DNA from: Polytrichum commune
Lineage: Eukaryota > Streptophyta > Polytrichopsida > Polytrichales > Polytrichaceae
NCBI GenBank assembly: GCA_950295325.1
Contig: OX485803.1
Coordinates: 17,484,001-17,548,000 of the forward strand
Reading direction: 5' to 3'
Length of the DNA stretch: 64,000 bases
Part shown: positions 1 through 17,577 of the stretch, piece after piece
Numbering within the stretch: the stretch's first letter is position 1
How the letters are laid out: each line of letters opens with the position of its first letter
The notes under the pieces: model-generated
What the model was told of the DNA's origin: nothing
The model's database searches: none
The model's input: the letters and a program-made list of their open reading frames with translations, nothing else
Program-made: the position numbers and the translations under genes

Positions 1-3000
1 TTTTGAGGGTGGGTCCAAAGGCCAGTGTATGTGGGAGCTGGTGTGCTCTTCCCGTTTTGGACGATACGGACTGTACACTTTTTTCGAGTGACAGCCATCT
101 GCGCCCAACAAGCCTTCGCAGAAACCTTATTAATTCGGGCAATGTGCCATATCTTCTCATTCACACGAGTCTCCTCCACGGCCGTCACCCGTCCAATATC
201 TATGCCAGTTGAGGCAGGGGGCTGTGCTGGGCGTTCCACTTCCACGTGAACTTCCTCATGGATGGTACTCAAATTTTGAGCACGAGCACGTGTCACCCTC
301 CGACCCACTCGAGGACGTGAAAAATTAACAGTGTCTGGCCTATGAGTTTCTTCTTTGGCGCCAAGGGGAAGATCCGGCTTCCGTTTCCTCGACCCAAAAA
401 CCTCAGCTCCTTCGAGGTGTGCGTTTCGAGTACAGAAATCTTCGGTTCCGGGCATGTTCAAGACGGCTGTGTTCAGGGTAGTCGGATCCCCGGTTCGGTG
501 AGCTCGGCGTTGGGCTGTGCGAAGTCGAAGTTCTTCTCTCGAGGGTCCAGAGCCTCCCGCTCCACCTTTGAGGTATTGATAGTACCCCACCACTTGCAGG
601 AATGCTCTAACGTAATCGTCGACGGCTGCCACGTAGAGATCGCCACCCCTATTGCCGGACGCTTGCAACCATTTGTTGTGAACGGTCTCAGCAAGGTTGC
701 AAGAGGGCATTTCAGCTAGTTCATCCGGAGAATATTTCTTCTCCTGTACGAAGGCAACTGTTTAGAAAATGTTCGGAAACTCAAGTGAGCAAGGAGTAGT
801 CGTGGTGGGCCATGCCATTTAAAAGCAAAAGATTTAATATTGTTTAGATACTACATTAGACGCAGAGAAAAGAATGCAAACTTAAAGAATTAAATAATTT
901 GAATGAAAGAGTGTATACTTACCAGTTCCATGAATCCACCCCACTACCTGTATCGGAAATACCAAAACGCAAGCCAGTGGTTCAAATGGTGGAGGCCAGC
1001 GTCAGAGGTGGCACCCGAAGATGTCCACCAGGCTTTGATTGCCAAGTAACGTGTTTCAGCCTTTGCCACAGACCGTGCATCTTTGTACTGCATACACAAT
1101 TTCTTGTGTTGATCTTGCAATTCGTGCACGATGTATTGTTTGGTGTGTTTTTCTAGGGATTGCGCCTAGTGGAAATAACACGTTCGCTCGCAGCCTTCCA
1201 TGGGTATCTTTGGGTCTCCGGATCCGTAGATGATGCGCACAGCGTTCCAATTGGCTTGCGCACTATCAGCCATGAAACCTTTGAACTGCGGCTTGTGTAT
1301 TCCATGCCTACCCATGACATGGTTAAGGTTCTTCCAAAAAACGAGTTGAGCATCTTTGTCCTCAGACTGGAAATCACAGCAAGCAATGGTGAGTACACGT
1401 TGGTAAGAGGAGTCGTACACGTAGCAGGCCATGGTGGTCCAATTGGCAACTCGTTTGACGTGGTCGAACATCATCCAGGGGTGCTCTAAATCGCCGCTAG
1501 GTTGCATTCGGCGGACAAGGTCAACACCGCTGCCAGGTCCCACCTCGGACATCTTGAATATGAAGACCTTGTCGGAGTCGTCACCTTGGCCTGGAAACAT
1601 GTTTCGTTGCACGTAGGCCCAATTGCTAAGCCCTCTGAGCTTAGTGATGCCATCAAGAACGCCATATATGCGCAAATACTTGAAACTGTAGACACGGTTT
1701 TTTAAGTTAGGGGAATTGAGCTCCTTGCAGCATTGGAAGATAGGCTCTAGCTGTTCGAGAGAAAGTAAGGTGGGAGGATCGTCTTCTTCGCGGAGCAAGA
1801 CGTTACCTAAAACATCCTTGGACGTTTCCAAGACTATTTTGGAAATGGTAGCCTGCGGGTTGCGCTCAACATGTTGTTCGATAAAATCGTCGATTATCTT
1901 CCGCGTGCCCCTATAGTCTCCTACCTTGACAGGATGTTTATGGTTGCCTACATGGACGCAAGCACGCTCTTGCGTATCATCTCCAAAAACGTAAAAGATT
2001 TTTGCATCACAAGAAGCTACACAAATAGGAGGTTCTTTACAGATCTTACAGACTAATGTTGAAGTTGGAGGTGGAGCGTCTGCAACAGGAAAAACATCTT
2101 TGGAAGAACCTTCGAACTCGACCTCGTTCACTCCATATGCGCGTTCAGGCCGCTGCAAAAACCCACATGTGGGATTGTGGCATTGAAGATGACCTACACA
2201 GTTAGACGACCGGAATGACAGCCCCAGCGTGTTACTGATGTTAGTAGTCATAGTCTTTGTCCATATATGGCCATCGTAACGTTTGTCCATACCTTCCATA
2301 GATTTAGCATTCTTATGGAGGGCAGATGGAAGTGTGGGAGGAAGAATGAAGATTACATCCCCATTGAACGACGGTGGCAGGAAATCTACAATCTCAGTAC
2401 GGATGGAATCATAATTCAGCTTTTTAAGTACTGACTTGCTTCCAGGCATACTACCCAGGGAACGAAGGGAGGGAAGAATGTTTATGAGTTTAGTAGTTTG
2501 CGAAGGTATAAGGGAAGGAGTAGTCCTACGTGAATCTTGAGAAGATGAGGGAGATGGACGCTTAGCACTAGACCGGATTGATGGATGGAAAGGCCTCCCC
2601 TCTTCATCAGAAGAATCAGACAAATCGATGCTAACGCGGAGACCTGGTTCGATCTTGACACGAGACAGTAAGGGGGCTTCAGTGCACAGTGTGGAGGAAC
2701 TGCGAGGAGTGAGTAGGACTGTAGTCGCATTCATGGACTCCGACAAGCCAAAGACGCGATACCTTCCGGGCTTGAGTTTCCAAACGCGAGCATTATTGTC
2801 TAACGTTACGGGCTGGACGTATAAGGAATAAAGGACATTTCGAGTATCCGGATCGACAACATCTGTCTCTAACCACAAGCTATCAACATCGAAACCATAA
2901 CGAATGGATAGCCACTGGGGAGTGAGATCAGCGGTTCCATCAGGGCCAGGAGGTATGCATGTAGGGATAAGAGATCCAGGAGAAACAAGTTCGATGACAT

Positions 3001-3034
3001 CGACGAGTGGAGCTTGGAAAGCAGCGGAAGACAT
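1..3034 (-). pseudogene. MULE transposase, two exons, two in-frame stops, 3' end outside window
   Basis: The coding exons are complement(923..3034) and complement(<1..743), joined in phase 0 across a 179-base intron. The start is taken as the ATG at 3034; the longer frame beginning at 3112 starts inside a TATA box. Residues about 279-367 hold a Cys/His cluster (C279, H282, C285, C290, CxxC at 329-332, C338, C342, H361, H365, H367) that looks like a GCM/WRKY/FLYWCH-type DNA-binding domain. The DDE core follows: first Asp in MMFDH (D524), second Asp in FMADS (D590), then the MULE CxxH signature CYFH (619-622). Codon 623 is TAG, where a Trp would fit, and codon 697 is TAG, where a Gln would fit; translation is otherwise open through 704 codons of exon 1 and at least 247 of exon 2. 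Exon 2 starts EKKYSPDELAEMPSCN and remains open to the window edge. This is a near-intact but inactivated DNA-transposon gene. Confidence 0.85.
744..922 (-). other. Intron of the MULE transposase gene
   Basis: On the minus strand the donor reads CTG|GTAAGT and the acceptor TTCGTACAG|GAG. Joining them keeps phase 0 and links FMEL to EKKYSPDEL. A second acceptor 15 bases upstream would break the frame, so the downstream one is preferred. Confidence 0.7.
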
Positions 3035-3093
3035 TGAGAAACAATTTGACAATATAATGGGAGAGGGAATTTGCAAAAGAGGGATCGAAAAGA

Positions 3094-3112
3094 AACAATG
3101 GGATATATACAT
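3094..3112 (-). promoter_or_regulatory. TATA box of the MULE transposase gene
   Basis: The minus strand reads GTATATATCC about 65-70 bases upstream of the ATG at 3034, so transcription would begin near 3075. This decides the start: the apparent upstream Met-Tyr-Ile-Ser codons are the TATA box itself. Confidence 0.5.
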
Positions 3113-3227
3113 GAGAGGTTGATGAAGACGTTGGACATCCCAGACATGTACAGAATGTAGTCAGAAAATGTTTGGTTAAATATGAGAAATAATAATAACC
3201 TGTATGAACAGGATTGTGAACAATAAA

Positions 3228-3659
3228 TCATGGAGTGCCAGACGAAAATGGGGCCTTTGCCATATGGGGCCCTTTGCCATATTTGTCACCGTCATGTTTA
3301 TGACAATGGTCAATCCCTAAACTACGAACTGCAGTGCATCCTGCGCAATCGAGTTTCTGACCTTTGGCACTCTTGAATATGGATCTAGAGTAAGTGCCAG
3401 GTTTAATAACACCTGCTCTAGAATATGCATGAATCTTGAAAGTAGACTTGTTTTGTATCAGTGTTGCATCAACTGCCTGCAAAGATGGAGTCTGTGGTTT
3501 AGGAATGACGACCGCCGGAGTAACTGAGGAGTCAGGTGGGTTGAGAATCTTCAGGTTGTTGACGCCTGGAGAACCATCGAATGAAAACGTGGTGTGAATT
3601 TGCGATGAACTAGGAGCACCTAATGGAGCAAAGCTTGGGAGACGTGAGTCAGTACCCAT
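3228..3659 (-). CDS. Small Cys/His-rich ORF of the MULE block (143 aa)
   Basis: I do not recognise the family. The frame starts at ATG 3659, about 50 bases downstream of a TATA box, and ends at 3228, about 190 bases before the transposase start. The N-terminal two thirds are Ser/Pro-rich and low in complexity. The C-terminal part has a tight metal-ligand pattern, DCAGCTAVRS followed by DHCHKHDGDK (CxxC then CxHxxH), which resembles a short zinc-binding motif. The last residues contain a small repeat in which a Gly-Pro/Met-Ala-Lys stretch is doubled at DNA level. With its own TATA box it is probably a separate accessory gene of the element rather than an exon of the transposase, since no splice pair joins the two in frame. 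A zinc-dependent nucleic-acid-binding role is only a guess. Confidence 0.5.
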   Translation of the reverse strand: MGTDSRLPSFAPLGAPSSSQIHTTFSFDGSPGVNNLKILNPPDSSVTPAVVIPKPQTPSLQAVDATLIQNKSTFKIHAYSRAGVIKPGTYSRSIFKSAKGQKLDCAGCTAVRSLGIDHCHKHDGDKYGKGPHMAKAPFSSGTP

Positions 3660-3705
3660 TGGAGAAGAATATGATGAGATGACATGAAAGAAAGGGTACC
3701 AATAA

Positions 3706-3722
3706 TCGGGTATTATATATAC
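3706..3722 (-). promoter_or_regulatory. TATA box of the small Cys/His-rich ORF
   Basis: The minus strand reads GGTATATATAATACCC about 50-60 bases before the ATG at 3659. It forms the left half of a divergent promoter pair with the plus-strand TATA box near 4170. Confidence 0.5.
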
Positions 3723-4278
3723 CTTGGGTAGACACCAATACCCAAATACATGACAACCTATTAGATCAATTAATAATCAATATTTATTCATGTCAATTCT
3801 AGACAACATGTTTCATGTAGGATTATAATGTACTCCAGTAATAGTCATTACCTTATGGCCCCTAAATATGATACATGTCAGTATAGACTAATTTTCCTAC
3901 GAACTAAAAAATAACTCATTCTTGATAACCTAATATATGCTACGCTGAAATGATGAAGGTAAACCCTAAAGGTGTATGAACCTTTTATGGAAACATATGA
4001 TAATTTGAAAATTTATGGAGGCCGTCATTGTCAAGGGAGATGCGTAAATATATCGACAAATTCAAAATAGATTAGTAACCGATGTCAGTGTTGTCAGTGA
4101 CCTAATCTCGGATACCGCGTTTTATTAAACGCGGGATTATAATTCGATGACGTAGCTTCCTAGAAATTAAATATAAAGGAAAGGGATTCGGTGGACTAGG
4201 TCATTCAAATACAAGTTGTGTTGTAGTTCGGTTTAGGGTGTTATCATTGTTCTACAAATTTGTGTAGTTTGATCAGCT
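3723..4278. promoter_or_regulatory. Divergent intergenic promoter region of the MULE block
   Basis: This stretch separates the minus-strand genes from the plus-strand genes. It is A+T-rich, has no sustained reading frame, and ends on the plus side with AAATATAAAGG (about 4170), a good TATA box roughly 105 bases before the ATG at 4279. In the middle lies a short inverted motif, CGCGTTTTATTAAACGCG (4117-4134), a perfect 7-base-arm palindrome around TTAT that could be a regulator site. Confidence 0.45.
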
Positions 4279-5267
4279 ATGGAGCCAACTATGGAGGGTA
4301 CGAGTAGTAAAACAAACAAAGTGAATGAGGGAGGGCGGGGGAGGAAGAAGAAGAGAGGTGGTATAAAATTCAATGGAGCCAAGGCTTTGCGACGGAACGC
4401 GTTGCGGAAGAGGGATGCCCCGGGTTCTTGCGAAGACGATCGAATAGTAGATGAAGTAGATAAGAACGATGAGGACGAGCTAGGAATGTTTAGAAAGACT
4501 ATCGAGATGCGGCCGTTGAACTTGGATGCTGTTGTTGAAAATGTTGATGGTGAAGACGAAGACGATGGAGGGGAAAAGGACAATGAAATTGAAGAGCAAG
4601 AATGTAGAAGGCCCTCATCATCGAGGAGTGATTCTTTGGGATTCGAACATGACAGTGACGAAGAAGGGATCGATAAAGTTGTAAGTTCCAAGACCCTAAA
4701 GCCTTGAAAGATGAGTATTAAACCTAAGTCATATTCTACCTTGCGTTGATGTGTATAGTACGAAGAAAGTGAGACACTGGTTGGTGAAATTTTTGGGCAG
4801 CAAGACGAGCACGGAAGTGCTGCAATTGAGGGCGCACCCAACGAAGATCAAGTCGAAGAACGCGATGTGATGGACTGCAAGAAACTAGGAGAGGAAGAAG
4901 AATTAGATGAAGGATTCCTGGTACTTATCCCAAACCCTGGAAATTCGATGTTTATGATAATTTGATGATGGATTAGGAACACATGTTGGGTAGATGTCAT
5001 AAGGATATATTACGATTGTTTATATCGATTGTTGGTCACCTGATTATAGATGTCTTTCTTAGGCAGTTGACGATGAAACGATGTTACTTCATTATTTGCA
5101 AATTTGACTCTATAAATGTTAACAGATGGAATACAACCATAATATGGATGATAAAAAGTACACATCCAGTAAAATCACATATGGTGATTGTGAGGGAGAG
5201 GATTGTGAGGTGGAACCCATTCCATCTTATAGTGACTTGCAATCTAGTTCTGGTAGCATTAGAAGGG
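4279..5267 (+). CDS. Spliced acidic protein of the MULE block
   Basis: The exons I can support are 4279..4680, 4759..4920 and 5126..5267. Donors are GTT|GTAAGT and CTG|GTACTT; acceptors are GTATAG|TAC and TTAACAG|ATG. All joins keep the frame, giving about 235 residues. Residues 1-50 are basic with a nuclear-localisation-like GRGRKKKRGG; the rest is strongly acidic, with runs of Asp and Glu and a DSDEEG motif. No enzyme motif is visible. A donor at 5268 (GGG|GTAGGC) suggests a further exon; joined to an acceptor at about 7481 it would end after four codons, but that join is speculative. A reading without the second intron would stop at 4965. The layout (nuclear signal plus acidic tail, divergent from a transposase) fits a chromatin- or protein-binding accessory factor of the transposon, which is inference. 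Confidence 0.5.
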
Positions 5268-5287
5268 GTAGGCATCTAGTTCTCTTG

Positions 5288-5739
5288 CTGCCTGCCCGGA
5301 GGGGCGGGGCAGGGTTCGGGAGACTTTGGAACTCAACCAGCTAAAATCCGGCCCTTCACAACTTATACCGGTTTTTTCAGAATTTGTCCGGTTGCAAACT
5401 TGTTGCCATTAATTAGGACTGGCCAATATCCTATAATTTTTTTTCGAGTGCCGGTTAATTTATTCTTCATTGTAATGACAACCGGCCAAAAACTTGGGCA
5501 TGTGTTAAGTAGGAGCAACACATGCCCAAGTTCTTGGCCGGTTGTCATTACAATGAAGAATAAATTAACTGGCACTTGAAAAAACATATTATAGAATATT
5601 GGCCAGTCCAAATTAATGGCAACAAGTTTGCAACCGGTCAAATTTTGAAGAAACCGGTAGATGTTGGGAAGGGCCGGATTTTAGCTGGTTGAGTTCCAAA
5701 GTCTCCCGAACCCTGCCCCACCCCTCCGGCAGGCGGCAG
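5288..5739. mobile_element. Foldback (snap-back) MITE
   Basis: The sequence is one long inverted repeat of about 225 bases per arm, centred near 5513, with roughly nine in ten positions matching. Outer ends read CTGCCTGCCCGGAGGGG on the left and, as complement, CTGCCGCCTGCCGGAGGGG on the right. The inner stem ends ACTTGGGCATGTGTT with a loop of about ten bases. No clear target duplication is seen. It lies just past the third exon of the acidic gene, so it may sit in an intron of that gene. Confidence 0.75.
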
Positions 5740-5756
5740 TGTCCCAACTCTGTTTG

Positions 5757-5876
5757 GGAGTTCGGGACGAGGGAGGCCGAGGGAAGTGGAGGTAAGGCGA
5801 AGGGAAGTCGGAGGAGGGAGGCGAGGGGACATCGGAGGAGGGAGGCCGAGGGGACGACGGAGGAAGGAGGCCGAGG
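5757..5876 (+). repeat. GA/G-rich minisatellite
   Basis: About four imperfect copies of a 24-25 base purine-rich unit built on CGGAGGAGGGAGGCCGAGGGG lie between the foldback MITE and the 167-base satellite. They open several frames on both strands that I regard as meaningless. Confidence 0.6.
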
Positions 5877-7380
5877 TTAGATTTTTCAAAAATGGAGAGA
5901 CCAGAGGTTAGATTTTTGAAAACATTTTATTTTGCTTCATTTTTTATTTGCAATTTCAGTAGGGTCCTGATGTTAGGTCAAGTAGGTTCATGAGCTGCAA
6001 TGGGTTTTTTTTCTGGGTTCCAGAGTTTGCTCTTGAAAATGGAGAGACCCCTGCGCTGGCGCAGGGGTCCTTATGTTAGATTTTTGAAAACATTTTTTTT
6101 TTCTGCATAATTGATTTGCAATTTCAGTAGGGACATGAGGTTAGGTCCGTTAGGTTCATGAGCTCTAAAGGGTTTTTTTTCTGGGTTCCAGAGTTTGCTC
6201 TTGAAAATGGAGAGACCCCTGCGCTGGCGTAGGGGTCCAGAGGTGACATTTTTCAAAAAGCTTTTTTTTTGCTTGATATTTGATTTGCAATTTCAGTAGG
6301 GACATGAGGTTAGGTCAGGTAGGTTCATGAGCTCCAAAGGGTTTTTTTTTGGGTTCCAGAGTTTTCTCTTGAAAATGGAGAGACCCTGCGCCAGCGCAGG
6401 GATCCTGAGGTTAGATTTTTGAAAACATTTTTTTATTGCTTGATATTTGATTTTCAATTTCAGTAGGGTCCTGATGTTATGTCATGTAGGTTCATGAGCT
6501 GCAATGGGTTTTTTTTCTGGGTTCCAGAGTTGCTCTTGAAAATGGAGAGACCCCTGCGCCAGCGTAGGGGTTCTGAGGTTAGATTTTTGAAAACATTTTT
6601 TTTTTGCTTGATATTTGATTTTCAATTTCAGTAGGGTCCTGATGTTAGGTCAGGTAGGTTCATGAGCTGCAATTGGTTTTTTTCTGGGTTCTAGAGTTTG
6701 CTCTTGAAAATGGAGAGACCCCTGCGCTGCCGCAGGGATCCGGAGGTGACATTTTTCAAAACGTTTTTTTTTCTTCATATTTGATTTGCAATTTCAGTAC
6801 GGACATGAGGTTAGGTCAGTTAGGTTCATGAGCTCCAAAGTGTTTTTTTGGGGGTTCCAGAGTTTCCTCTTGAAAATGGAGAGACCCTTGCGCTGGCGTA
6901 GGGGTCCTTATGTTAGATTTTTGAAAACATTTTTTTTCTTCTGCATAATTGATTTGCAATTTCAGTAGGGACATGAGGTTAGGTCCGTTAGGTTCATGAG
7001 CTCTAAAGGGTTTTTTTTCTGGGTTCCAGAGTTTGCTCTTGAAAATGGAGAGACCCCTGCGCTGGCGCAGGGGTCCTAAGGTTAGATTTTTGAAAACATT
7101 ATTTTTTGCTTGATATTTGATTTTCAATTTCAGTAGGGACATGAGGTTAGGTCAGGTAGGTTCATGAGCTCCAAAGGGTTTTTTTTTGGGTTCCAGAGTT
7201 TGCTCTTGAAAATGGAGAGACCCTGCGCCAGCGCAGGGGTCCTGAGGTTAGATTTTTGAAAACATTTTTTTTTTGCTTGATATTTGATTTGCAATTTCAG
7301 TAGGGTCCTGATGTTAGGTCAGGTAGGTTCATGAGCTGCAATGGGTTTTTTTCTGGGTTCCTGAGTTTGCTCTTGAAATT
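5877..7380 (+). repeat. Tandem satellite, about 9 units of about 167 bases, with repeated GC palindrome
   Basis: Each unit contains, in order, TTAGATTTTTGAAAAC, a T-run, TTTGCAATTTCAGTAGGG, GAGGTTAGGTCAGGTAGG, TTCATGAGCTCCAAAGGG, TTTGCTCTTGAAAATGGAG and then a GC palindrome. The palindrome is GACCCCTGCGC-TG-GCGCAGGGGTC in its perfect form (near 6046 and 7047), and diverged versions occur at about 6214, 6382, 6549, 6718, 6885 and 7218. Unit starts are spaced 165-170 bases apart. Two unit subtypes alternate in part (TTAGATTTTTGAAAAC against TGACATTTTTCAAAA). The array fills the gap between the acidic gene and the ParB-methyltransferase gene; no further copy was seen in the window. Open frames inside it are by-products of the repeat. 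Confidence 0.9.
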
Positions 7381-7623
7381 GTTGACTTTGCTCTTGAAAT
7401 TTGTGTATTTATTTGTGATTTCATGATGGCGTATTTTTTCTAATCTATATTCGTTTAATTCTTATGTGCATGCTTCTATAGATAGAGTGCTTTGAGCGGA
7501 GAATGACTACAACATTGTGTTCTCCAAGTTGCTTCGCCGTTTTTCCACTTTCTTAGCTAGTCGTCGTTTATACTACTTCATACTTTTTCTAAGTGTTTTG
7601 TGTTTCGTTTACCTACCTTCCAG
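7381..7623 (+). promoter_or_regulatory. Leader/promoter region of the ParB-methyltransferase gene
   Basis: The stretch between the satellite and the ATG at 7624 has no strong TATA box. It ends in a polypyrimidine tract and a splice-acceptor-like TACCTTCCAG|ATG directly at the start codon, so a 5' untranslated intron is likely. A second acceptor-like TTCTATAG lies at about 7481. An alternative GTG 24 bases upstream is in frame but not needed. Confidence 0.35.
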
Positions 7624-10600
7624 ATGACACTATCCGATGTGCCCATGCCTGATCAAGTCCCACCTCCGTCGATAGATTCCGTGGAGGAGGATTCTAGCAT
7701 TCCCCTGGACAGTCAACATTCTCGAAGCCCAGATGTTGCCGAAGTGGAAGAGGATGTTCCTCCGAATGTCCCATCCTCCGATCATCACACTTTCGATATT
7801 AGCCATCATGTGGCGGAAGCCGATACCATACAAGATGCCACTCAAGAAACGCCTGATTCAAGCGACAAACGCTCGGGTAAACCCTTACTTCCTCATGGTG
7901 GTGTTGAACTTGGCATTGTTCACATGCCCCCTCATCTGCAGGACAAGGACCCCATGTGGAGCGCAAATGAGATGAGATTGCTGCAGAAGAGTGACTACAA
8001 TAGCGTCATCTCCAGTCTTCGCACCAAACCCATTAAGAAGTCTCGATTCCTAATTCCTCTGTGTCGTCTCAAGACCTACCCGAAAGTTCGTCCAATTGTC
8101 GATTCGGACGTCGAGATGTTGGCGAACGAGTTCGTCAAAGGGTATCGAGAAGGAGATCGAGTTTTGTATGTGTCTCCTTTCAATATCACGGACAAGGACC
8201 TTGTGGTTCGAGTGAATGACGCCATCTGGTCTAACCCGCTATGTAAGGCTGCTAATGATGAATTCGAAGAGTACTTGTCCTCTGATACTGATCTCCATCA
8301 GTTTCGGAATAAATATTTTTACGTTTACGAAGGCAATCACCGCGTGACGGCGTGGATGGGTTATATCCACAAGTAACATTCCAATAATCTTGACTGGTAC
8401 ATTTCTGCTGACTGTATTGTTCTCGACGCACGTGGGGAATGCTCAAGGCTCCTCAACGCCATGAACTATATCAACTGGTACGTATAGTTCCAAATCCATT
8501 TGAATTAATTTCATATTGCATTTATTCATGGAAGCCTTGTTTTAATACTCATATCGTCATTCACAGGTCGACGGAACATGATCATGTTCAAGACAGTACT
8601 ATTGCCAAGTTGCAAAGAATTCGAACCTTCGGCGCATTCAAACTTTCTCATTTTAAAGGTCTTATTAGCAAAGAGGACATGGCTATTTGCGAGGCTTATA
8701 AACCCCGTGTACCGTCATGGTATCCACTCACCATGGACATTTTCGTGAAATTCCTTCACGCGGTAAGTTTTCTAAAGTTATGTGCTTATCGTTTTCATAT
8801 TATGAATTGCATCATGCGTTTCTTGCATCTCAATTATTTTCGTACAGAAACAATGCGCTGTTGCATCCGACGCTGCTTGCTCGAACTATTACGAGACCGT
8901 GCCCGAGAATGAAAGGACTGGGCCTAGAGTCTGGAGCGCGATGAACAATGTCATCACGAAGTGTGTCAAGTATTGGCGCAGCCAAAGGTTCGACAAGATG
9001 GTTGCAATCGCCAACCCAGCCAATAGAGAGTTATTTGAACAAGAGGTATTCTCAACTCTCAACTCTCAACTATCAACTCTCATCTCAACTTTCAACTCAA
9101 CTTTCAACTTTCAACTTTCAACTATCAACTCTCATCTCAACTCTCAACTCCCAACTCTCAACTCTCAACTCAACTCTCAACTCTCAACTATCAACTCTCA
9201 TCTCAACTATCAACTCCCAACTCTCAACTCTCAACTCTCAACTCAACTCAACTCTCAACTCGCAAATTTTCTTATATAAATATTCATTTTCCACCCAGCT
9301 CAATAAACACTATACTAGCGGGAAATCATTGGACTTGACCGTTGAGCGTCTTCATAAAATTGCAACCACCAAGGTCCATCCAGACTTCAAAGGAAAATGG
9401 TTGCAATTGTGGAACGGAACGGACGAGGAACGAGCAGCCTACCGATTTCCTCTAGATCGTCCAATGAAGGACAAATTCCTCGACGCCTGGTTGCCAAGGG
9501 CTTCTCTCTGGTCTCAGGTATGACGATATTTACTTCTTCTAGGCTCTTCATTTTTAATCCGTTGTAATCGTCGTTACTTCTAACACCCATCGTTTCATAA
9601 TGTATGTCAGTTGTCTACTTTCCTTAATAACCACATCGACAACTATGTCGCTAAACTTAAGATCAACATTGAGTGGAGCTCCGTTGTTCTCAAGCCGGCG
9701 GAATACGTGGAGAAATGGAGGTCTCTATTGTGGAAGAAGGCTTTCCCCTTCTACCTCTCGGAAAATGCAAGCCCAAGGTTTTTGAAAGGTTCAGACCTCC
9801 TAAAGATTGAAGGTGGAATTTTAGCAGGCCGCTTGTTTTACAGGTTTGTATGATTTGACTTCTTGTTTGATTCAGTGTTCTCTTTGTCTCTATCACCCTT
9901 ACTAAATGTAACGCATATATGCAGGTACATGAAGCAAGAGCTCATCGCCAAACGTGCTCTTGCGGCTTGGGAAGTTCCGGCTCATGTTGAGCTCAAACCG
10001 TCTACCCAAACGCCTATTGATGAACTTTGGACCAAAGACCAACGCAATCGATTTCCCAATGATGTGTTGCTCACAGGTGGTTGGTTCCTCGAGTGCCCAC
10101 CGAACTTCGTTCCTGAGGAGGAGAAACACCTCGTCCCTGTCCCGGAACCATCTGCAGGAGGAGCGGCTCCTATGGTCACTGACTTAAACGACGACGACGA
10201 AGAGGAGGCAATTCAGCCTGAACCTGCTCCGAAGCCAAAAGTTCAACGTCGAGGGAAGGTTCGTTATCGCGACGGTTCCGTTGTGGCAGCCCCACCTGCA
10301 GGAGTTCAAATTCCGGCGGGACCTCCTTTGGCTTCGACTCACACTTCGCAACGCACGGTTTCTAATCCGCCATCACCTCCACGTTCCAACTTGGATGTTC
10401 AATCTAGCCAAACTCTTCATGTCACACACTCTGGCCGTGGTGTACCACCCCCGAAAGGTGTAGGTGTCATTTCGTCTTCGCCGTTTAAGACGACCCTGCC
10501 GATGTTTCTTGAGCATGGAAACTTTTGTGCCTTGCTTAACCAGTCTGAACACCAGAAATTCATGGATCGACAACTTGTCCGTATCGTAGACCACATTATC

Positions 10601-11996
10601 AAGGTCACACAATCCCATATCTCACTAACACTATCAATTTGAAAATTGTCTTGGACTATTGAGGTTTTTTATTTTCGGTAACTCATACTTTCTACTACTC
10701 TTATTCATATAGATCGGGGTCGGCCGTACTTATCCTTGTGAATCGATGCAAATGCGGCCTAGGCATCCTGGAATTGATCTCGTGATTGTTGACGCTCCAG
10801 AAGACTTGGTCGTGCCTGTCATCTCCCCCATGTCTGTACCATCGTGGAACAAGCGAGAGACAGACTACTTTGACCAACTCTTCGCCTTCGCAGATTGTCA
10901 CTTGACCGATGACGGAGTTGTTCTACTCTTCCATCCCAAGGACCGTCGAATCGAGAAGAAATTAGATAGTAAAATCAAAATCTATGATTTTACGATTGTC
11001 CGGGATTGGTGGGGCTATAATCCCATTCCCATGGCCTCCTCCCTTTCACACCAGAAAGAGGTATTATCTTTTATGTTCATAATTTGAATTTCTCAATCCG
11101 ACAATCAGTTTCAAAACCCTCTAATCCTTGAGGTTGTCTTACAGACCCATAACATCAACATTAAGGTCTTTGCACGCCTTAGTTCCAAGTTCCGTACTCG
11201 CCGATTGCGACCGCAGTTCGTACAAATGGAGATCCTTCCCGAAGAGCGCGATGACTTGACGAACTTCACGACAACCGAGTCCCAGCTTCTACGCCATACT
11301 GGACTTCCTTGGCATGGCTCGCGTGAGAAGGACCCATCCTTTGTTCAGTGCTTCATCGAGTGTCTTACAGACGAGCGTGATATCGTCTACGACTGGAGCC
11401 CTAGTACAGGTTCTCAATCTCTCCATTCATCGTTTACAACAGCTAAAATTGAATTCCACTTTCTAATTTCCGTTTTCCAAACTGCAGGTGCTTCTGTCAT
11501 TGCTTGCCAACGTTCGAACCGACACCTCATCGCGTTGGAGCCGGATTCAGAAATCTTTGAGGCGCTTCTCAAGCCTTACGTGGATGCAATCCCGCAACCA
11601 GAAGAGCGCGCGGATTCAACCACAGACTCTGATTCTGAGGAAGACATTGCGCCAAAGAAGAAGAAGGGTCGCAAGTATTGCGGTGTGTCTTAACTGCATG
11701 TCTTAAGTCTCTCAAACATTTAATGTATTCATATAATTTGTCATGCTGACTTTGTTTTATTATTTAGTGACGCAAGTCTCGCACGACGTTTGATCCGCCA
11801 CGCTGATGTCTACATGAGTCCTCCTACTTCGTTCGCCTTACCTTCATATGCCGAACGTATAGCACAGGAATTCATATGCGCCCCATCTCCAATCCTTTCA
11901 GATTCTCCACGTCAAGTTTTCAACCCTACAGTGCTTAGATACATGGATGTCGAGGCTGATCAATGTGACGAGAGTTTCGATGCTGGTTCACCTTGA
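7624..11996 (+). CDS. ParB-like domain fused to a degenerate beta-class DNA methyltransferase, ten exons, one in-frame stop
   Basis: Exons: 7624..8477, 8567..8762, 8848..9045, 9299..9517, 9611..9843, 9925..10603, 10713..11060, 11145..11409, 11488..11674, 11768..11996. All nine introns are GT-AG and every join keeps one frame, giving 1,136 codons with the final stop. Residues about 142-285 form a ParB-N-like domain: IPLCRLKTYPKVRP, ANEFVKGYREG, the GNHR box (237-240; family pattern GxHR) and a C-terminal stretch like the family's acidic-to-ENLN end. Codon 251 is TAA inside this domain. A low-complexity linker (about 600-740) follows a middle region of unknown fold. The C-terminus has beta-class methyltransferase order: motif IV IDLVIVDAPE (820-823, family DPPY), then a late motif I DWSPSTGAS (992-1000, family DPFxGSG) followed by LIALEPD. 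The catalytic Pro and aromatic residues are replaced, so methyl transfer is doubtful. ParB-methylase fusions are known from prokaryotes and phages. Confidence 0.8.
9046..9298 (+). repeat. Intron 3 filled by a TCTCAAC minisatellite
   Basis: This intron is 253 bases against 78-109 for the other eight. From about 9050 to 9262 it consists of imperfect 5-7 base units of the form CTCAAC, TCTCAAC, TTTCAAC and TATCAAC. The splice sites (GAG|GTATTC and CCACCCAG|CTC) are outside the array and intact, so the expansion has not damaged the reading frame. Confidence 0.85.
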
Positions 11997-12075
11997 TCAA
12001 GACTATCCATATGTTTGTTTCTTTTCTCTCGCCACGTGCATAATGTAGCCATTTGAAATGGCCATTTATTTTTAT

Positions 12076-12081
12076 AATAAA
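12076..12081 (+). terminator. Polyadenylation signal of the ParB-methyltransferase gene
   Basis: An AATAAA hexamer lies 80 bases after the stop codon at 11996, in an A+T-rich 3' region. Confidence 0.5.
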
Positions 12082-14550
12082 ACTTTTACAAGTTTATTTG
12101 TGTCATAGTTATAATTCTAAACTTCTCAAAAAAGTTCAAAGAAGTTGAAGTTTGAAAGTTTGAGTGAAGCCCTTTGCACTGAAATGCATGTGCACACTTC
12201 AAACTTGAACACTCAAGTGAATCTATTCGACAAAACCTAGTAAGGACATGTCTTCCGTTTTTATGTCGAATTGTATATAAATTGTTGAAGTGCATTTTGT
12301 TTATTTTAAAGCTTAGAAATATATACATATATATTGTATTCTTCCATAAATGCTACCGTAGTTGAACCCTAGTTTCAACTTATTTCTTCAATTGGATAAT
12401 CTCACTAGAAAGACAATGCATTTCCTTCAATGGTTATTTTGCATTTTTAAAAATATGAATAGCAGTTTAACACACAAAAATAAGTTTTATTGCCTCCAAA
12501 CACCTGTGGGGCGTTTGGTTATGTTTATGGGCTCATGCTGCCAATTTTAATTGCAGCATTGTACTAACTGAAAAAGCTGAATGATTGCCAACCCTTAAAA
12601 GTTGCCTAAGTTCAGAGGGGGCCTTGGCGAGAATAATAATGAAAATTCTTGTTTATACTCCATCTTTAGTCGTTTCTTAAAGAAGCAACATGTCATAGAA
12701 TATTTTAATCTCCTTAACGAGGTAAATTCTCCATTTAAGTACTAAGTTGAAGTCCATATTTATGGTGTAAATATGGTCAAGTGCATCATATAATTTAGCA
12801 TATAGTTCTAGCATCAATGTCAAAATTTGTGATGTATGGGAGGGAATTATGAAAATAAGGAGTGAGAATTAAAACTCAAAACATCCATTCTTTAGGGTTT
12901 TGAGATATAAGAAGCAATGTCAATAAGGAGGTTAATACAAGAGACTTTATAGTATATTGCATGGGAGAGTCAACAATTTAAATAAGTTACATTGGAGTGT
13001 GTTATTTGAATACATTTTTTTCGAGGTGGCACCTATTCATAATTAGTTTGTATAGTCTAGATAATGTATGGATGAAAGTTATGCTCGTACGTGATAATCA
13101 CCCTTTTCTAGCCACTTCAAAAGAGCCATGTGTCAAGAGGTTTTGGACTTAAAGTAGACGTGCTTAATTCAGTTGCTTATCTTAATGAACACCTATCTTT
13201 GAGTGGTATGTGGTTAGATGTAGCTACAAAAATGGAAACCCAAACAAATAAAAAAGATCGGACTATATACTCTATAGTATGATCCCCATCCTAGACGCAA
13301 TACCTAATGAACATATTTGAGGGGACCTACCTACATGACCGATTAACAAGCACAAGAATATTCACTTGTTGGATTGTATAAACTTCCCCATTTAAATTAT
13401 TGTTTCGAGGATGCCAGCCCTAATTACGCCCTTAGCCTTAAACACTAAAACAAATTTGTGAATTAATTAAAACACAATTTCATTTCAACCTTGAACGGTC
13501 CTCATTTAAAACCCCCTTTCATATAAATGATGACGTCAGCCCTAATTTCACTATATATATAATAACAAAAATTTGCAGTAGGACCCCTTCCACGGATTTG
13601 GGGTACTCTTTTCCCTTAAAATATACATTTACAATTTTCTCCGGACCAAATTCAGTGGTAATAGGATCCTTATGTTTCAATAAATTTTTTAAAAGCGAGC
13701 GGAGAAATTCACGAAAACATGACGCTCACCGCTCTACGCTCATGCTGTAACTTTCCCCCCTCCGTAACCGTTCAGATTCCGTTGCAACCGTTCGGGTTCC
13801 GGTGTAACCGTTTTCCGGACCGGACCGTTTAAAAACAGTCTCCCTGGATTAAGTTCCGGTCCATCCAAAGTGTCCGTTCTAACCATTTTAACGCGTAAGG
13901 CGGATGCTTAGAACCTTATTTCATAAAACAACTAACCTACCCTAGAAAACCCTACTTTGAGACCAATACCAGGGTATTATCCGGATATTAATCCGGTTAG
14001 GAAGCCAATCCGGACTTCCGTGGATTTTTGGGCTCCCACACCACGTACGTGAGACTAACAATGAGTTAGTTTTGCAACAATGTTAAGCACACATGGCTAT
14101 CTAGAGCAGACAAACCTATTTCCGTGAACTTACGCAATTTCTCATAAGTGTAGTACATGTGTGATATTGAGGTGATTTTTCAGAAGTTTGGAATTTGATA
14201 TCACAACGTTTAACAACAAAATAATAATAATAATAATAATAAATCACAATTAATTTCCAAGTTTTGAAATTATTATAAATGCTCAAAGGCAAGATTCCCT
14301 CCCAACCCATATCCATAGCATAGGTCGACTTATTTCCCACTTGAGTACAACTAGTGCCCTTTTCAAGGAACCCACATCCATGCCTTTTGAACTTGTTTTT
14401 TTCCATCATGCGACAGCTAGACTACATGTGTGTTTCTTCATGGCTTTCTCCATCATGTTAGAAAATGAATGCTACATGTGTGGAACCTCATGACTTTAAG
14501 GGACTCGACATATCAAGATTAGGGGGAGGGGGTATCGGAAATGGGTTTGT
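12082..14550. other. Gene-free A+T-rich tract with possible MULE right-end sequence
   Basis: No gene is visible. A fragment at about 12840-12945 matches the pogo-like MITE that is complete at 49510-49983. From about 13600 to 14040 the DNA becomes richer in G+C and repeats the motif AACCGTT or its close variants (for example CCGTAACCGTT, TGCAACCGTT and TGTAACCGTT within 13770-13820). That could be the subterminal part of the MULE, but no matching left terminus is available to test it. An (AAT)n run is at 14221-14242. Confidence 0.4.
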
Positions 14551-15990: not shown

Positions 15991-16269
15991 TATAGGCAAT
16001 GATGTAGTGTTGACTCATGAAAGCTTGCCAATTGACTATGGTCGGCTTTCATGCTTGTAACTTACTCAAGGACCTTGATTCTTGGAAATTTATGTTGAAG
16101 CTAGAAGAGAAGAGAATGCCCTCACATACGTTCAAGAGTGTTGTTCATAGACATAGCTTCGTAACCTCCATTCATGAAGGGTGCACTTGACTAGAGTTCA
16201 AACCTTGGACAACTGCCAAAATAATTATAGTTAATTAGATATTTTTCAATACATTTGAGGGGACAACTA

Positions 16270-17575
16270 CACCCTAACCTTGATAATGTCACACCCTCCG
16301 TTTCACCAAAAAGTGTGATATAAACAAGGTGTGACATACTTGATAATGTCACATTTTGTGCATAATGTGATATTATCAAAAAATACGTAGAAAATCAAAA
16401 TATAATTACAATTTAAAAAAAAACAAATACAAGACTTCAATGTTTTTGAATGTAAAATCTAATTCAAAATTGTGAATAATAACAAGAGCACATCACAATG
16501 TGTCATTGAGATCAGGTAAAGACCTCTCACTAGAGACAAAGAAGCTTCTAATGTCACATTGTTTTGTTGATGTTAAATGTGCAACACCAATTCTAATGAG
16601 TTTGTCATGGATTTTTTCCATTTCTAACAACTCATGAGTGCTGAAAATCTGAGAACCTTGGCTAGCCATAAAATTCAAAACATCTTTAGCATATTTTTGT
16701 GCATCGCTTAGCTTCACTACTTTAGACTCATCATCACTGCTATCAACAATCAATGGGTCCACTTCTATGGAATCAAGAACCTGTTCGCCATCGTGCACTA
16801 ATTGCACAAGCTCCTCAATAGAAAATTCCACCTCAAAATCATCTTCACCTTCCATGTTTATGTACTCCAAAGGACAAAGCTTTTCTACAGGCTTGCCTTC
16901 AACATCCAAACCCAAATTTAATGCGGCGATGAGTCTACCCAATTCCAAAGTTGCTTCCTCCATTTTGGACTTCATACGTTCATCAAGATTGTTTATATCT
17001 GCATTCCACTCTGCAAGCAATATGGCGGACTTTCTCCAACAATTTCTAATGGTTTGATCATCTAATTCATGCCATGCCGCCACACACCATAGCATAGCTT
17101 GAAATACTTCAACATTCAATTTCCCCAAATCTTCATTTGAGTTGTTATCAATTTGTTGCAAAGTCCAGCCAACAAGCTTGCGCTTGTAACACATTTTGAA
17201 TGCTGCAATCACTCCTTGATCCAAAGGCTGAACAACTGAAGTCACATTTGGTGGAAGGAACAAGATAGTGATATGGGAGAGTACAAAAGCATTAAACCCA
17301 TCTATAACTTTCTTGACCTCACCATGAATATCATGGCTTCCTGCATTATCCATAATAATGCAAATTATTCTGTCTTTCAATACCCACCCATACAATCCAT
17401 CCATACTTGATATTATCACATTTACACTACGGATTTTGCAAAAAAATAGTGACATTATCAAGGGTGATAGGGATAATAACGAGGGAGTTTTACACTATGA
17501 AAATCGGTTTCAAACTTTTAGGTGACAATATCAAGGTGTTCTATTAACAAGGGTGACATTATCAAGATTAGACTG
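16270..17575 (-). mobile_element. Internally deleted pogo/Tigger element (Tc1/mariner superfamily)
   Basis: The left end reads CACCCTAACCTTGATAATGT and the right end, as complement, CAGTCTAATCTTGATAATGT; both are flanked by a TA duplication (16268-16269 and 17576-17577). Further copies of TTGATAATGTCAC and its complement lie just inside both ends as subterminal repeats. The element is 1,306 bases, too short for a full pogo transposase gene, and contains only the C-terminal part of that gene. Confidence 0.85.
16493..17461 (-). pseudogene. Pogo/Tigger transposase, C-terminal fragment (DDE_1 type)
   Basis: The open frame of 322 codons holds IIMDNAGSH (second catalytic Asp, D38 of this frame) and LFLPPNVTSVVQPLDQGVIAAFK (third Asp, D81), which are diagnostic of the pogo/Tigger branch of Tc1/mariner. 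An acidic C-terminal tail with EGEDDFEVEF and SSDDES follows. The first catalytic Asp and the CENP-B-like DNA-binding domain are absent because the element is deleted between this frame and its right terminal repeat; the first 20 or so codons are read from that junction. The frame has no internal stop, so the deletion may be fairly young, but the protein cannot be an active transposase alone. Confidence 0.85.
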
Positions 17576-17577
17576 TA

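Follow-up and report, generated by a model that had tools for sequence, protein, structure and literature searches.

A ParB-methyltransferase gene as a standing part of MULE-like transposons in the Polytrichum commune genome

There is a 64,000-nucleotide stretch of Polytrichum commune DNA (G000:C1:17484001-17548000, here called the window) whose first 12 kb hold a transposase, a small Cys/His open reading frame (ORF), an acidic ORF, and a bacterial-looking gene that joins a ParB-like domain to a methyltransferase (ParB-MTase). Does such a gene belong to a transposon, and what would it do for one? An earlier note on this DNA proposed a four-gene Mutator-like element (MULE) at positions 1-12081, with a methylation-like protein that could mark or protect the element's own DNA. 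The genome was searched for further copies (408 Mb in 64 contigs, seven of them large). The transposase and the ParB-MTase gene were found, divergent and inside short terminal inverted repeats (TIRs) with 10-bp target site duplications (TSDs), in two element families, A and B. The pair is also present in a third family, C, with its ends unmapped. The ParB-MTase gene is a standing part of a real multi-copy, multi-family kind of transposon, because sister elements in the genome carry the same pair. Its protein may be a regulator that binds the DNA of its own element.

The window holds a decayed copy of family A. This copy spans G000:C1:17482812-17497758, which corresponds to window positions -1188 to 13758 (14,947 bp). 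It begins with the letters GGGCGTTGCTAGGGCATGAGCGTAGA, ends with CTACGCTCATGCTGTAACTTTCCCC, and is flanked on both sides by an exact 10-bp TSD, CCTCCGTAAC. All four coding features proposed for the first 12 kb are present at their places and are enclosed by these ends. The gene list therefore stands, while the boundaries at 1 and 12081 do not. A comparison of five copies gave one long common block with sharp edges, the left edge being found in all five and the right edge in four. The TIRs of family A are short and imperfect. The window copy is dead, as it has two TAG codons in transposase exon 1, further stops in exon 2, and a TAA in the ParB-MTase gene.

When the transposase exon was searched against the genome at the DNA level, 43 matches resulted. 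Twenty-two of these span at least 1,887 of 1,963 bases at 94-100% identity, and the remaining ones are fragments or are about 70% identical. For the ends, 31 right-end and 29 left-end places were kept and were paired in matching orientation within 60 kb. This resulted in 26 left-right pairs. A full or partial transposase match lies inside every one of them, and in 24 a ParB match lies alongside it. The two pairs that have no listed ParB match are C2:48.05M, where the ParB-MTase part is missing from the stretch read, and C3:16.2M, which spans 42 kb and whose interior sequence was not read. Flanks were read for 24 pairs, leaving out C4:44.03M and C6:5.30M. Exact 10-bp TSDs were found in 19, a 9/10 match in one, and no clear TSD in four. 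Six of the 19 were read by eye, since those copies begin GAGCGTTGC. End-to-end spans range from 10.8 to 43.4 kb, and the longest must hold other sequence too. That the fusion gene shares terminal repeats and 9-10 base duplications with the transposase, as the earlier note proposed to check, is borne out by these pairs. Copies consistently without the ParB-MTase gene, or ends that enclose the transposase only, were sought and not found, with 2 of the 26 pairs lacking a listed match.

Related, deeply diverged families carry the same two genes. In family B (L027+L028) the transposase is 58% identical to that of A and the ParB-MTase is 27-46% identical over aligned pieces, in the same divergent layout. 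Its ends form a 42-bp inverted repeat of 95% identity with a 10-bp TSD, AGAAACTCGG. Family C is represented by two loci, Cx and Cy. The transposase of Cy is 54-55% identical, and that of Cx is interrupted. For two further families, D and E (L033, L034), the reading was confined to the ParB-MTase gene, in which E resembles B closely. Both ends (terminal 60 bp) of A and B carry repeats of the heptamer GAGCGKA. Elsewhere three A copies have one internal copy each, B has none inside, and 50 kb of window flank has three. It is a candidate transposase binding site.

A first look at the whole genome gave 1,800 transposase candidates, 1,073 candidates matching the ParB exon, and 2,348 matching the MTase half, and counts among the listed matches are lower bounds. 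Of the 133 transposase matches on the list, 90 are accompanied within 30 kb by one of the 150 ParB matches listed. Eighty-six of these pairs are divergent and four are not. In 200 shuffles the mean number of pairs was 2.8 and the maximum was 9. The 43 transposases without a listed partner do not prove absence; three A copies among them had one in a separate search.

The ParB-MTase gene is under purifying selection between family members. When Cx is compared with Cy, the ratio of nonsynonymous to synonymous change (dN/dS) comes to 0.165 for the MTase exon, at a dS of 0.165, and to 0.248 for the ParB exon, at a dS of 0.299. It is 0.229 in the ParB exon between B and E, on 11 changes only. Within family A, ParB-MTase gives values of 0.38-0.80 (four copies) and transposase exon 1 gives 0.35-0.96 (five copies), which is the pattern expected when copies decay after insertion. 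Exon 1 of the transposase is open in three of five A copies read, and ParB-MTase exons 1-9 are open in one of four. In the portion of the comparison that was read, no A copy had both transposase exons open. In the family B copy both exons are long open frames. Selection and repeated co-occurrence together show that the gene belongs to the element.

The two genes are exchanged between families as modules and have separate histories within the elements, because their identities do not match in two cases. Subfamily A' has a transposase that is 95-98% identical to that of A and a right end that can be aligned at 92% over 426 bp. Its ParB exon is 48-49% identical to A and is closer to B and E (61%, tblastx). 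There are ten A'-type ParB genes at 95-100%, one of which was read (L036). Family C is the reverse case, with nearly the same ParB-MTase at its two loci and transposases that have reached saturation at synonymous positions (dN 0.283).

The spacer between the two genes contains palindromes. Family B has 29 copies of the 22-bp palindrome GAGGCCTCGGATCCGAGGCCTC there, 25 exact, four with one mismatch, and none with 2-4. Another five matches, which differ at 5-7 positions, overlap with an offset or are located apart. These palindromes have been kept while the repeat units diverge, because the mean majority frequency per column is 0.994 in the palindrome vs 0.674 in 90 flanking columns. There are 1,903 exact sites genome-wide and none for a reversed-pattern control. 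Fifty distinct sites of the 1,903 were listed, all on C1. Twenty of these have a listed ParB on one side and a listed transposase on the other, 29 are 3.8-8.7 kb away from the transposase at C1:2249067 with no listed ParB within 30 kb, and one is near neither. Locus Cx possesses two longer copies of this palindrome and two with the core CGGATCCG and other arms, and Cy possesses one unrelated palindrome. The palindrome of family A, GACCCCTGCGCyrGCGCAGGGGTC, lies in 168-bp units and has 65 exact sites genome-wide, those listed being all within two A elements. Four A copies have 2, 5, 0, and 0 perfect palindromes. Flanking DNA has none in the window at 14-64 kb, one in 18.8 kb, none in 24 kb, and 12 in 26 kb beside the C6 copy, ten of which form one other array.

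That array (G000:C6:9543575-9544151, position computed by hand) lies next to an A element and has 10 perfect palindromes, GGTTTGGGTCG..CGACCCAAACC. It is possibly from a further family. At G000:C2:69440179-69453046, in an A element with 41 kb between its ends, exact palindromes occur at multiples of about 169 bp over 12.9 kb; this is a strongly expanded array.

The ParB-MTase gene has nine introns. In the four copies with the gene, 35 of 36 pairs of splice sites read GT..AG, the exception being the last pair of C1:1.53M, which has a gap at the acceptor. The fifth aligned A copy is without the gene. The ten-exon structure first proposed is supported in this way, except that the frame of the last exon is uncertain. 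Exons 1-9 encode 1,061 amino acids (aa). In the exon-1 domain, P..KS....PL.R......VRP and GNHR..AW are invariant in all eight rows. We take these patterns (GxxR-type, GNHR) to be a ParB/Srx-like motif.

The C-terminal half has a beta-class amino-methyltransferase fold, by a two-step link through L035 only. L035 (G000:C1:9661201-9663400) is a 577-aa open frame elsewhere in the genome, and frames of the same length lie at C4:44111740 and C5:16865322. Positions 1-216 of L035 match PF01555 (N6_N4_Mtase) at E 1.2e-7 (32.4 bits, cut-off 26.7), and L035 aligns to residues 521-1061 of the A protein (541 residues) at E 4.7e-28. The motif-I exons of several elements are among the weak genome-wide PF01555 matches. 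The canonical catalytic motif of amino-methyltransferases is DPPY, or [DNS]PP[YFW] more broadly. The element proteins have VDAPED (A), VDVPDN (A'), ADIPEN (B), ADIPEN or ADLPEN (C), and ADIPEN (D) at this place. D-x-P-[ED] is thus the form in each of the five element groups whose motif was read, and DAPE, DVPD, DIPE, and DLPE do not fit the [DNS]PP[YFW] pattern. The aromatic residue is found only in L035 (VDIPYG, DIPY). Amino-methylation by the element proteins is unlikely because of D-x-P-[ED] at the catalytic position, going by the motif. A glycine-containing motif I region and the R-H-x-x-A-x-E-x-D stretch that follows it are kept in the element families.

Searches for outside relatives of this protein gave little. 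A ParB profile gave 30 pattern matches in viral contigs, none of which was confirmed, and L035 had no tblastn match among phage sequences. Sub-threshold PHROG matches were found for L035 (phrog_67, E 0.015) and L029 (phrog_498, E 0.34). The PDB sequence search returned three matches, the best at E 0.27, and none was useful.

We consider it possible, with a probability of about 0.4, that the ParB-MTase of this large MULE-like transposon, of which the window holds a decayed copy, is a family-specific, self-binding regulator with a disarmed methyltransferase. The ParB-like part would bind the family's palindromes in the non-coding spacer of its own element. The methyltransferase part would have kept its fold, and perhaps S-adenosylmethionine (AdoMet) binding, and lost the amino-methylation motif. 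It could then act as a scaffold or a reader and not as a writer of methyl marks. The occupied spacer might keep both genes open against host silencing, as VANC does for VANDAL, and/or the protein might mark the DNA on which the transposase works. Different palindromes in each family would let each protein serve its own family. The conserved palindromes offer a concrete candidate binding site for the question of what use the protein is to the transposon.

Several observations weigh against this self-binding regulator. PF02195 (ParB) matches none of the elements, and its four genome matches are all on small contigs. The AlphaFold model of the ParB exon is poor, with a predicted local distance difference test score (pLDDT) of 41.8, and the name ParB rests on motifs and analogy. 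Taken alone, the element proteins are below the PF01555 threshold (a B piece, E 0.12) or are unmatched (A). The family A palindrome is 91.4% conserved vs 93.5% for the rest of its unit (15 units from two copies), and 108 of 144 windows of the unit score above it. Of four A copies, one has just a single recognisable site and another just two. The array beside the C6 copy lies in DNA assigned to no element. Furthermore, the palindrome binder could be the transposase or a host factor.

A more elaborate proposal is that the families possess their own ParB-and-site systems, in which a ParB-like protein fused to a disarmed methyltransferase loads on an array of private perfect palindromes, spreads, and shields the element from host silencing, with the cassette being exchanged between families. 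We regard this as doubtful.

It is also rather unlikely that the ParB-MTase acts directly in transposition, whether by choosing targets, by synapsis of the ends, or by nicking DNA through its ParB-like domain, as a second transposition protein like maize MURB. The gene is usually beside the transposase and under purifying selection, as such a role would have it, and the ParB domain-adenine methylase fusion Bce_0392 is described as having nicking activity in the part of PMC5512222 that concerns it. However, the palindromes are mainly in the internal spacer, and the ends carry GAGCGKA instead. The modules have also been exchanged while ends and transposase stay, suggesting no tight fit of the protein to the ends.

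The transposase could represent an undescribed superfamily with 10-bp duplications that is not Mutator. Pfam transposase models matched neither six exon-1 rows (two of them partial) nor the exon-2 proteins, and the exon-1 scan gave only unrelated weak families, the best being FERM_M in one row (E 0.0081). PF10551 does detect other MULEs in this genome, with 150 of 271 candidates listed. Among those listed, none overlaps an element transposase, and the nearest is 3.5 kb away; profile sensitivity may be the limit here. There were also no PDB sequence relatives (0 matches). Against a new superfamily stands the stretch CNLAETVHN, which we take to resemble the MULE Glu motif. There is also a CxC...CxH near the C-terminus with a weak match to PF04434 (SWIM), at E 0.12 in family C, below the cut-off, and with no match in A or B. 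The AlphaFold (AF2) model of exon 1 is poor (pLDDT 43.5). In its low-confidence core a helix and three strands are predicted. The first candidate Asp (524) falls within the first of these strands; the second (590) is at no predicted strand. MULE TSDs are given as 8-11 bp in the section of PMC6446971 that describes them, and those of A and B are 10 bp. The TIRs also agree with a MULE, being short and imperfect in A and 42 bp at 95% in B. Overall a new superfamily seems unlikely. The element is called MULE-like, a label drawn from structure, motifs, and analogy, because there is no Pfam transposase match, the model is poor, and the second Asp is off any strand. The TSDs and TIRs are in keeping with the earlier assignment to MULEs; formal Mutator membership is weakened by the absence of a Pfam transposase match.

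That the protein is an active methyltransferase of adenine or N4-cytosine, with which the element would mark its DNA, is improbable. The linked N6_N4_Mtase fold, the motif I region and R-H-x-x-A-x-E-x-D stretch, and the D-I-P-Y retained in the relative L035 would be in keeping with it. In A, A', B, C, and D, however, the aromatic residue is lost. This weakens DNA methylation as the mechanism that had been suggested for this locus, and it argues against the current reading of ParB-MTase proteins as DNA methylating enzymes. MULEs are known to capture genes, but a captured host gene (Pack-MULE), nested elements, or a chance neighbourhood was rejected as scarcely credible on the presence of the pair between the same ends in 24 of 26 copies, the TSDs, and the repetition of the pair, under selection, in diverged families.

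ParB-MTase transposon genes have already been reported in brown, red, and green algae. The portions of Dinatale et al. 2025 (PMC12477816) that deal with Sola1-1_Ec32 of Ectocarpus describe a protein that combines ParB-like and N4/N6-methyltransferase parts and is encoded on the opposite strand to the transposase. The role suggested there for proteins of this sort is to bind and modify the transposon that encodes them, and for cases in red and green algae a 2011 work and Petroll et al. 2025 are cited. By that description, the Ectocarpus and the present elements are alike in having both parts in one protein (1104 aa there, 1,061 aa here), encoded opposite the transposase in a giant DNA transposon. 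They differ in that the present element is MULE-like and not Sola, and lies in a genome that carries plant-type NB-ARC/LRR genes. The lost catalytic motif (in the groups read), palindrome arrays, and module exchange also set it apart from the algal proteins as described. The 2011 work is reportedly by Iyer and colleagues. The range of ParB-MTase transposon accessory genes, so far algal, thereby comes to include a genome with NB-ARC/LRR genes of plant type. Searches of the open-access literature in PubMed Central (PMC) listed neither a MULE nor a land plant with a ParB-MTase, and the words moss and methyltransferase are absent from the main text of PMC6446971. The family B palindrome array and the exchange of transposase and ParB-MTase modules are new.

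The Arabidopsis MULEs VANDAL21 and VANDAL6, with the anti-silencing protein VANC, also combine a gene for an accessory DNA-binding protein with non-coding tandem repeats, and in both systems short family-specific motifs expand, contract, and diverge, judging from the relevant parts of PMC10398659. The comparison with VANDAL as a multi-gene design thus holds. By analogy, VANDAL would be the closest functional model. To our knowledge, no ParB or methyltransferase domain has been reported in VANC. Bacterial and phage ParB-methylase fusions are presumed active enzymes. They share with the present protein a ParB-like part and an amino-methyltransferase fold in one chain, according to the domain descriptions available for Bce_0392 (PMC5512222) and PHROG DNA methyltransferases. 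Unlike those of maize MuDR, the TIRs of the present element are short and imperfect. MuDR has a second gene, mudrB, that is not a ParB-MTase. Its two genes (mudrA/mudrB) in one MULE and its 9-10-bp TSD class are points of likeness in the part of PMC6446971 that covers it.

The features of the window copy are collected in Table 1. The transposase consists of two exons on the minus strand, and exon 2 leaves the window on the left.

Table 1. Features of the family A element in the window. Positions are those of the window; negative numbers lie to its left.
Feature	Position	Strand	Remarks
Family A element	1..13758	.	13,758 of 14,947 bp fall in the window; 10-bp TSD on each side
Transposase exon 2	1..743, on leftward to about -723	-	Candidate catalytic Glu CNLAETVHNKW; SWIM-like CxC...CxH; more in-frame stops in window copy
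Transposase exon 1	923..3034	-	N-terminal domain, Cys/His region, two candidate catalytic Asp; two in-frame TAG in window copy
Small Cys/His ORF, 143 aa	3228..3659	-	Open in 4/5 A copies; sub-threshold PF02945 (E 0.064)
Acidic/basic ORF, at least three exons	4279..5266 (about 4279-4680, 4759-4920, 5126-5266)	+	Splice sites read by eye
Near-perfect inverted repeat	5286..5738	.	457 bp aligned, 91%; whole or in part in 4 other A copies compared
Tandem array	5904..7378	.	168-bp unit, 8.8 copies; upstream of ParB-MTase gene
Palindrome GACCCCTGCGCTGGCGCAGGGGTC	6046..6069	.	Exact repeat at 7052-7075; imperfect, starts 6214, 6549, 6717, 6883, 7218
ParB-MTase exon 1	7624..8477	+	ParB-like motif EGNHRVTAW; TAA at 8374-8376 in window copy
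ParB-MTase exons 2-5 (of 2-9, 8567..11682)	8567-8762, 8848-9045, 9299-9517, 9611-9843	+	
ParB-MTase exons 6-9	9925-10603, 10713-11060, 11145-11409, 11488-11682	+	
ParB-MTase motifs	within exons 2-9		Motif IV VDAPEDLVVP; motif I region DWSPSTGASVIAC..RHLIALEPD
Probable last ParB-MTase exon	11768..11996	+	Splice junction and frame unsettled
Right terminal inverted repeat region	13720..13758	.	Ends CTACGCTCATGCTGTAACTTTCCCC; GCATGAGCGTAGA common with left end of window copy
Right-hand TSD copy	13759-13768		Directly after right terminal inverted repeat region

Neither of the two small ORFs belongs to the core common to the families. The small Cys/His ORF has no clear relative in B (best E 0.27) or C, and the acidic ORF has weak matches only, such as one family C locus at E 0.005 and 26%. 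Among A copies both have too few changes to judge selection. As only the transposase and the ParB-MTase are clearly common to the families, the four genes do not hold as a unit. The leftward ORFs and the acidic ORF do diverge at about 3.7-4.3 kb, as the idea of one shared promoter region had it. The start of the ParB-MTase gene is 3.3 kb beyond this point, preceded by a tandem array of its own (168-bp unit), and does not fit that idea.

Some further features are present in and near the element. The inverted repeat at 5286-5738 could yield hairpin RNA and small RNAs. A TCTCAAC minisatellite (window 9050-9265) fills most of intron 3 of the ParB-MTase gene. On the small contigs C12 (501-aa frame) and C10 (722 aa), both PF02195 and PF01555 are above the cut-off, and on C23 PF02195 only; these contigs are likely bacterial contamination of the assembly with bacterial-type ParB-methylase fusions. 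Beyond the right end of the element, the window also contains a short pogo-like element (16268-17577). It has a 322-aa frame on the minus strand that matches PF03184 (DDE_1, E 1.3e-18) and inverted repeats at 16268-16292 and 17553-17577.

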